From positions 124,001 through 188,000 of the forward strand of contig NZ_PGFH01000002.1 of the NCBI RefSeq assembly GCF_002797685.1: DNA of 64,000 bases, written 5' to 3'. A program made the translations under genes and the position numbers. How positions within the stretch are numbered: the first letter of the stretch is position 1; every line of letters starts with the position of its first letter. Below the pieces are notes generated by a model that was not told the origin of the DNA, did no database searches, and worked only from the letters and a program-made list of their open reading frames with translations. Source of the stretch: Salinibacterium amurskyense. GTDB taxonomy: Bacteria; Actinomycetota; Actinomycetes; Actinomycetales; Microbacteriaceae. Shown in pieces: positions 16,969 to 17,858 of this stretch.

Positions 16969-17125
16969 GAGGTGCCTTTCCGCGATTGGTTGACCCATTG
17001 TGCACTACGCTGTTGAGTTTTTCATCGGTATCGGAAGGCTCGGCCGGTGTGCTCTGGCGCAGAAATGTCAGTGGCTGCGGGTAGTTTTAAAAAAAGTTAG
17101 CCGACACGCCGAGACACTACATCTG

Positions 17126-17160
17126 GGGTAATGACATGGGTGTCATTACCCATATATAGT
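17126..17160 (+). promoter_or_regulatory. Promoter with large palindromic operator ahead of a 27-aa peptide gene
   Basis: Two perfect 11-base arms, GGGTAATGACA (17126-17136) and TGTCATTACCC (17141-17151), flank TGGG. The left arm supplies a -35-like ATGACA (17131-17136), and 18 bases on lies TATAGT (17155-17160), a good -10. The palindrome therefore straddles the -35 element and spacer, the classic position for a repressor. The expected 5' leader (about 45 bases) contains a small CCGAC/GTCGG hairpin (17168-17182). Confidence 0.65.
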
Positions 17161-17213
17161 GAAATCTCCGACAAACCGTCGGCAAACTTCGAGAAGACTT
17201 TAAGGAGGATCGA

Positions 17214-17297
17214 ATGGATAACGAAAACGACACTGTTGGCGGATACGCAATTCCCGTCGACCCAATGGATCTTCTGCAGTGCGACAGCTGCCAGTAA
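17214..17297 (+). CDS. 27-residue peptide with C-terminal CxxC motif
   Basis: ATG at 17214 is preceded by the strongest Shine-Dalgarno in the vicinity (AAGGAGG, 17202-17208). It opens a 27-codon frame, MDNENDTVGGYAIP followed by VDPMDLLQCDSCQ, ending in TAA. The N-terminal half is acidic and ends in Gly-Gly; the C-terminus carries two cysteines two residues apart, the penultimate residue being Cys. The unit has its own promoter, operator-like palindrome and terminator. No modifying enzyme, exporter or receptor is adjacent. Possibilities are a RiPP-like precursor, a metal- or redox-binding micro-protein, or a signalling peptide. None is proven; that the peptide is translated is well supported by the site layout. 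Confidence 0.6.
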   Translation: MDNENDTVGGYAIPVDPMDLLQCDSCQ

Positions 17298-17330
17298 AAA
17301 CTTACTGAGCTAACGCCTCACAAGATTCCT

Positions 17331-17373
17331 GAAGCCCCGGCAGACCTCACGGTCTCCCGGGGCTTCACTCTTT
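17331..17373 (+). terminator. Rho-independent terminator of the 27-aa peptide cistron
   Basis: GAAGCCCCGG (17331-17340) pairs perfectly with CCGGGGCTTC (17357-17366), and inside it AGACC pairs with GGTCT around a TCAC loop. A short CTCTTT tail follows. It cleanly separates the peptide gene from the MaoC gene that starts at 17412. Confidence 0.8.
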
Positions 17374-17411: not shown

Positions 17412-17858
17412 GTGCCAGTGAATCCAGAACTAGAAGGCCGGGTCTTCCCGCCCACCACCCCGTATCTTGTCGGGCGCGAAAAAGTACGCGAGTTTGCTCG
17501 CGCCGTCTTCGCCCAAAGCCCCCTCAACCACGACGCTGAAGCAGCGAAAGCAGCAGGCTATGCGGATGTCGTAGCACCGCCCACCTTCGCCGTCGTCATC
17601 CAAGAAGCAGGCCTCGCCCTTCTCCTGGCCGCCCCCGACACCGGCATCGACTTCTCCCGCATCGTGCACGGAGAACAAAAGTTCCGCTACACGCGACCCA
17701 TCGTCGCCGGCGACGAACTCACCGCCATCCTCACTGTCACGAGCATCAAGTCCCTCGGTGGCAACGACATGATCACCGCCGAAACCGCGATCAGCGATGC
17801 CGATGGCAACCACGTCGTCACCGCAACCTCCGTACTCGTCATGAGAGGCACAGAATGA
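17412..17858 (+). CDS. MaoC-like (FAS1-type) dehydratase subunit, HadA-like, 148 aa
   Basis: Hot-dog-fold protein resembling HadA/HadC of actinobacteria. PELEGRVFPPTTPYLVGREKVREFA is the family opening, followed by the AAGYADVVAPPTFAVVI hot-dog loop and GEQKFRYTRPIVAGDELTAILTV. HadA-type subunits lack the catalytic Asp/His and pair with a HadB-type partner to dehydrate 3-hydroxyacyl chains. The partner follows with a four-base overlap. In mycobacteria HadAB acts in FAS-II; in a Microbacteriaceae host without mycolates the role is probably in ordinary or branched fatty-acid elongation, which is inference. Start is GTG. Confidence 0.85.
   Translation: MPVNPELEGRVFPPTTPYLVGREKVREFARAVFAQSPLNHDAEAAKAAGYADVVAPPTFAVVIQEAGLALLLAAPDTGIDFSRIVHGEQKFRYTRPIVAGDELTAILTVTSIKSLGGNDMITAETAISDADGNHVVTATSVLVMRGTE

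Follow-up and report, generated by a model that had tools for sequence, protein, structure and literature searches.

A 27-codon gene predicted to encode a free redox tail of class I ribonucleotide reductase, with copies on phages and plasmids

The 27-codon gene at 17214..17297 on the forward strand of the window (the whole 64,000-nucleotide stretch of Salinibacterium amurskyense DNA that was analysed) very probably specifies, as a separate peptide that would act in trans, the C-terminal redox tail of this cell's class I ribonucleotide reductase (RNR), a reading to which we assign a probability of about 0.88 and which rests on homology and genomic logic. RNR makes the building blocks of DNA. 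The catalytic subunit NrdA of an ordinary class I enzyme has a flexible tail with a cysteine pair, which moves into the active site once a turnover is complete and reduces the disulfide there; it then moves away again, and thioredoxin or glutaredoxin restores its thiols. Much of one bacterial family appears to rely on a free micro-peptide for the working of its class I RNR.

The 27-codon gene and its conservation

The gene encodes MDNENDTVGGYAIPVDPMDLLQCDSCQ from an ATG at 17214 to a stop codon at 17295-17297, and the ATG lies five bases beyond a Shine-Dalgarno sequence, AAGGAGG (17202..17208, forward strand). Upstream and on the same strand, a -35-like hexamer ATGACA (17131..17136) and a -10-like hexamer TATAGT (17155..17160) are separated by a spacer of 18 and reach 10 of 12 matches in the promoter scan; this is the only promoter-like site between 16700 and 17700, where shuffled sequences gave a mean of 0.3. 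Around the -35-like hexamer lies a perfect 26-bp palindrome (17126..17151, unstranded), GGGTAATGACA-TGGG-TGTCATTACCC, made of two 11-bp arms without mismatch. Downstream, a forward-strand hairpin (17330..17367) is a probable terminator: the stretch that holds it folds far better than its own shuffles (z -5.1), it has one internal mismatch and a weak T tract, and the terminator scan did not list it. Palindrome, promoter, Shine-Dalgarno sequence, reading frame and hairpin all lie where the first-pass annotation had placed them, although its "long perfect terminator" is too strong a description because of the mismatch and the weak T tract. The next gene on the same strand, at 17412..17858, gives the context of the tail gene and is presumably MaoC/HadA-like; the solitary tail gene is also near murB and about 160 kb from nrdA. 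An Rfam search of the whole window returned two tRNAs and the SRP RNA, none of them at the tail-gene locus, and family scans found no Pfam or NCBIfam model matching the 27-residue peptide.

A similarity search recovered the peptide in 26 of 27 genomes of the same genus, each of which holds one solitary copy and, from a comparison of coordinates, one copy within about 300 bp of the RNR alpha match. For several loci, L041-L044, L055, L064 and L065 among them, linkage was established by coordinates only. The 45 copies found by similarity alone all keep both cysteines and the DPM motif, are free of stops and end in CDSCQ or CESCQ, so that the conserved C-terminal CxxCQ that had been proposed as a check is indeed present. 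Among 19 solitary copies of the genus, pS was 0.314 and pN 0.048 (pN/pS 0.15), and the gene is under purifying selection; since the pattern defining these 19 demanded the proline and both cysteines, residue conservation was taken from the 45-copy set. A chance frame is thus not the explanation, given its presence in 26 of 27 genomes and the pN/pS of 0.15, and the proposal of a dedicated, regulated gene with a real short product holds. Family-wide, the peptide was found in 136 of 299 genomes and in 42 of the 85 sampled genera. A class-level search matched 36 of 394 genomes at E up to 0.1, and the counts of fused forms given below leave these out. Linked and solitary peptides span some 22-36 residues, their starts having been chosen by hand.

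NrdA with and without a terminal cysteine pair

The genome of the window has a single PF02867 match, an NrdA of 812 residues with an ATP cone, an all-alpha domain and a barrel. Its only cysteines are at positions 227, 305, 441 and 456, none of them terminal; all four align with cysteines of the NrdA of 5im3, and C227, C441 and C456 are presumably the catalytic three. The protein ends ...ARRGFGGFAKKAE, a cysteine-free linker that carries an RRGFG-type motif. Two bases past the nrdA stop starts a 26-residue ORF, MNRENTVEDYFVPVDPMDDLQCDSCQ, followed by nrdB. The beta subunit finds its best match in 1syy, the class Ic R2 of Chlamydia trachomatis, and has a Phe in the place of the radical Tyr, with HCMSF versus HTHTF. 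The partner RNR is class Ic-like by this Phe.

Across the family, we compared the end of the alpha subunit with the occurrence of the peptide in 86 genomes from 84 genera, of which 84 genomes had an alpha; 90 of 94 alpha matches were read, the four others being contig-end or double pieces. Class I alpha without terminal cysteines occurs in 42 genomes, all of which have the peptide, versus none of the 42 genomes whose alpha ends in its own CxxC (CVSCML and similar) at E up to 0.01. The association is strong (Fisher p about 1e-24, kinship uncorrected) and partly phylogenetic. The one genome of the genus without the peptide (G006) fits the same division: its alpha (L062), presumably class Ib-like, ends in its own CVSCML, neither tail gene was found, and no similarity to the window was seen in the 1.5 kb that precede the MaoC relative. 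A single weak profile match in G006 (E 0.51, ten positions, within a 740-residue frame) is taken for chance. Three of the 42 genomes with tail-less alpha, G090 (L171), G101 (L172) and G095 (L174), have in addition to the split class I enzyme a second alpha that looks class II-like by its Cys-rich end.

In 39 of the 42 genomes with tail-less alpha, a tail ORF lies directly 3' of nrdA. In G035 the alpha frame extends beyond the usual stop, and a tail ORF is present. In G041 and G079 no CxxC frame was found behind nrdA in the stretch examined, and each has a single tail gene, solitary and away from nrdA: both genes lie within about 1.2 kb of the MaoC relative, the one in G079 on its upstream side (1.1 kb) and the one in G041 downstream of it. 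With a solitary tail gene only, these two genomes suggest that the tail peptide should act in trans.

The origin of the peptide is indicated by relatives in which the same sequence is part of NrdA. An order-wide search matched 38 of 396 genomes, 36 of them outside the family, and in 32 of these 36 the match falls within a frame of 869-1108 residues. The 19 such loci that were read belong to a single genus, in another family of the order, and in every one of them an NrdA frame ends ...ACPVDPMExLQCESCQ, has RKGFG-type linker motifs and is followed by nrdB. Furthermore, among loci from named genomes (80 examined of at least 118 found), ten are fused to alpha, including loci of Demequina, Actinotalea, Nocardioides and an Aeromicrobium MAG; the remaining 70 have no alpha in the same frame. 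Because the same sequence is fused there in relatives, the free peptide is homologous to the NrdA end, and its detachment from NrdA would be the simplest reading. In one genome (G669, L538) of the genus with fused NrdA, the tail is out of frame with alpha, probably a sequencing error or a fresh split. For one naturally fused NrdA (L414), the AlphaFold model built from a 20-row alignment was too poor for use (mean pLDDT 50, pTM 0.46). Of the three guesses made in the first-pass annotation, a redox-active micro-protein is the one that agrees with this homology to the RNR CxxC tail, and its statement that known families do not explain the peptide gives way to an RNR tail, even though no family model covers it.

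We considered that the linked tail might instead be joined to NrdA by programmed frameshifting or a similar process, in which case the solitary gene would have another task, such as regulation of the covalent tail or competition with it. That 30 of 39 linked tails stand in one frame relation to nrdA and that most genomes keep both copies would agree with this; however, the other nine fall in the remaining two frames (5 and 4), and since all three frame relations occur, a single frameshift does not explain the linked tail. Linked tails moreover have possible start codons of their own and variable N-termini, and G079 and G041 have a solitary tail and no linked one, so that we regard such joining as improbable.

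Promoter architecture and mobile copies

Among the 90 copies labelled non-linked, the promoters of 67, referred to here as solitary promoters, align without gaps as.AaaCACtAcAT.TaGtGgAATGACA...gTGTcATTcc.gtTATATAGTg, their selection having demanded box 1 and the -10 and not the middle. The other 23 comprise mobile copies, five that are truly nrdA-linked and four chromosomal ones (L090, L200, L210, L215). The outer parts of the 67 promoters are NrdR-type boxes, 33 bp apart from centre to centre. In the window, box 1 is ACACTACATCTGGGGT (17114..17129, forward strand; several relatives have ACACTACATGTAGTGG), and box 2 (17147..17162, forward strand) overlaps the -10, with its centre 33 bp from that of box 1; in many relatives the symmetry of box 2 is weaker. 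A pair of the same type, 1 bp closer (32 bp), was found at 48 of 53 nrdA loci. The exact double-box pattern occurs twice in the genome, before the tail gene and before nrdA, the pattern having been drawn from those two sites, and NrdR is present in the genome. The tail gene carries a double box of the same NrdR type as nrdA, and is a predicted member of the NrdR regulon. The arrangement resembles the NrdR regulon in having two boxes about three helical turns apart before a gene, and differs from it in spacing: at S. coelicolor nrdRJ, a distance of 31 bp is given between the boxes' conserved GC pairs (PMC9110341), versus 33 bp at the tail gene and 32 bp at nrdA.

The palindrome lies between the two boxes, a setting absent from the first-pass annotation. 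With up to 3 mismatches allowed, its full form has a single occurrence in the window, and 100 shuffled sequences gave none. Its core, AATGACA-N4-TGTCATT, is found within 3 mismatches in all 67 solitary promoters, so that the upstream conservation asked of it is there, and in none of the 48 nrdA promoters, all of which show at least 6 mismatches. One pair of arm positions is G-C in 51 of the 67 promoters and T-A in 8, the window copy among the latter, an exchange that favours a true dyad though the copies are related; another pair is complementary in 42 of 67 only. The core occurs exactly once in the genome, on which ground an operator of many genes was rejected; five more sites have 2 mismatches, versus one for the reversed control pattern, and a small regulon may exist around the core. 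The SigR promoter consensus GGAAT-N18-GTT (PMC2375139) is found in 50 of 67 solitary promoters and in none of the 48 nrdA promoters; the window copy lacks it, reading GTAAT-N18-CAT. The palindrome is a candidate operator or a candidate part of an alternative-sigma promoter.

Detached tails are also found on mobile elements. The phages phiPsal1, CMP1, CN1A and Pan2 carry them at E values of 0.02 to 2, weak matches that were counted because the frames end in the motif; three of these genes are unannotated and one is a hypothetical protein. Nineteen plasmid records match at E up to 10, and some of the plasmids with a tail gene are conjugative. One 33-residue plasmid tail (WP_223361114.1; NZ_CP065038.1 49231-49332, L270) bears the label "ribonucleotide-diphosphate reductase subunit beta", which seems to be mistaken. 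In IMG/VR, a pattern running from DPM to the end found at least 120 stretches, of which 80 were examined and 73 tails read. In 62 of the 73 the frame is shorter than 80 residues with no RNR signature nearby, ten have longer frames without RNR signature, one is near a beta gene and none is fused. Positions outside the pattern are conserved as well, with P at -14 in 72 of 72 readable tails and Y at -17 in 55 of 72, and in 29 of 73 the stop is preceded, at a distance of 20-41 codons, by a start with a Shine-Dalgarno-like site. Of five viral contigs sampled, four have proteins that match terminase, head, tail or integrase families.

A PF02867 alpha is absent from 49 of 50 records (46 viral contigs, often fragments, and the four phages), and the only one present ends without cysteines. 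On a 95-kb viral contig (G1072), an NrdA frame of about 1136 residues (L532) is some 310 residues longer than that of the host, which suggests an intein; it has no tail cysteines, and a separate tail gene (L322) is on the same contig. A sequence around CGCGGCATATCCTCGC...CGGTATTCCACG recurs, in variants, upstream of the mobile tails L022, L023, L024, L025, L029, L033 and L206, which are on plasmids or islands, and is perhaps an RNA or translation element of these mobile elements. Phages need dNTPs. We lean towards the view that the RNR tail is an exchangeable minigene of some 22-36 codons, controlled separately by the host and carried on phages and plasmids, and that phages, mostly without an alpha of their own, plug extra tails into the tail-less host enzyme and so raise dNTP supply during infection. 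If this is true, the minigene would in our judgement rank among the smallest auxiliary metabolic genes.

These copies bear on a second alternative, in which the solitary peptide acts as a decoy or brake: by competing for thioredoxin or the active site of NrdA, it would reduce the activity of RNR. Such competition by a tail-like peptide is conceivable, and a non-reducible complex with yeast Rnr1p is described for a fungal RNR C-terminal domain in trans (PMC3618301). On the other hand, a brake is hard to reconcile with carriage by phages in need of dNTPs, with the presence of both cysteines in all 45 copies of the set that was found by similarity alone, with its being the sole tail in G079 and G041, and with NrdR-type boxes common to the tail gene and nrdA; we consider it as unlikely as the joining by frameshift.

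A role as leader peptide or attenuator of the MaoC-murB genes that follow, to which a short ORF, a hairpin and then a same-strand gene would lend themselves, is very improbable, as the tail gene of G079 is 1.1 kb away from the MaoC relative on the upstream side and that of G041 is downstream of it, amino acids rather than codons are conserved, and nrdA-linked and phage copies precede other genes. A RiPP precursor with a Gly-Gly leader, a metal-binding peptide or a secreted signal, ideas drawn from the short length, the GG pair and the CxxC, is likewise very improbable, because GG is absent from the aligned nrdA-linked copies, the conserved part is the C-terminal tail, which is the end of fused NrdA elsewhere, no Pfam or NCBIfam family was matched, and a sequence that is part of an enzyme as cytoplasmic as RNR leaves a secreted signal unsupported.

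Proposed function and known split reductases

Returning to the free redox tail as the preferred reading, the cysteine pair lacking in tail-less NrdA would be supplied by separate peptides, linked and solitary. The peptide would dock on NrdA, its CxxC would reduce the active-site disulfide, and thioredoxin or an NrdH-type protein would recycle it. A candidate docking site is the [RK][RK]GFG motif of NrdA. The motif was found in 18 of 20 NrdA tails, the other two having RRGFA and RTGFAGFG, and it is common to fused and tail-less NrdA, so that the fused forms have it too. One or more motifs of this type are seen in the NrdA linkers of the clade (e.g. L054, L091-L118, L409, L414). The solitary gene would provide an independently controlled supply of tails when dNTPs are short or thiols oxidised, and under NrdR-type control it would provide more tails per enzyme at low dNTP levels. 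As a counterpoint, an untethered 27-mer must find NrdA. Since most genomes hold a linked tail too, the solitary copy could also have a second role.

To our knowledge, class I RNRs are taken to carry the re-reducing tail in cis. The peptide shares with the CxxC tail of class I NrdA/NrdE the same sequence element and, presumably, the thiol relay, and differs from it in lying outside the NrdA chain. Open-licence PMC papers, as far as their text was available, gave no detached class I tail, either as a gene of its own or as a phage or plasmid gene. In one survey, CxxC is reported in 1737 of 2022 class I sequences (PMC9531940), a figure that implies tail-less sequences in that set, for which the portion of the survey consulted offers no explanation. 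With the present reading, a phage and plasmid gene that often goes without annotation acquires an identity. The reading would also make long-standing questions of tail function testable by adding or withholding a short peptide, namely which subunit the tail serves (its own or its neighbour), how thioredoxin recognises it and what sets the limit on turnover; in yeast, the tail is described as entering the site of the adjacent subunit (PMC3618301).

Two known systems offer comparison. The NrdA of Aeromonas phage Aeh1 is a class I alpha in two chains that is reported to be fully functional (PMC2988022, PMC3653736) and, on the evidence of these sources, shows that class I can be split; there, however, the split results from a homing endonuclease insertion within the gene (an intein according to PMC3653736), and no mobile redox-tail minigene figures in what these papers describe. 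Closer is NrdJa/NrdJb of Pseudomonas aeruginosa, in which the redox C-terminal cysteines are on a separate chain, disulfide exchange takes place in trans and both chains are needed in vivo (PMC4520616). This is a class II, B12-dependent enzyme and not a class I one, and the account consulted tells of neither a second, separately controlled locus nor phage-borne copies (PMC4520616). With a predicted catalytic chain lacking tail cysteines and a separate chain carrying them in 42 of 42 genomes, the class I enzyme described here would likewise be a split RNR, and the split class II NrdJa/NrdJb is, by analogy, its nearest working parallel.
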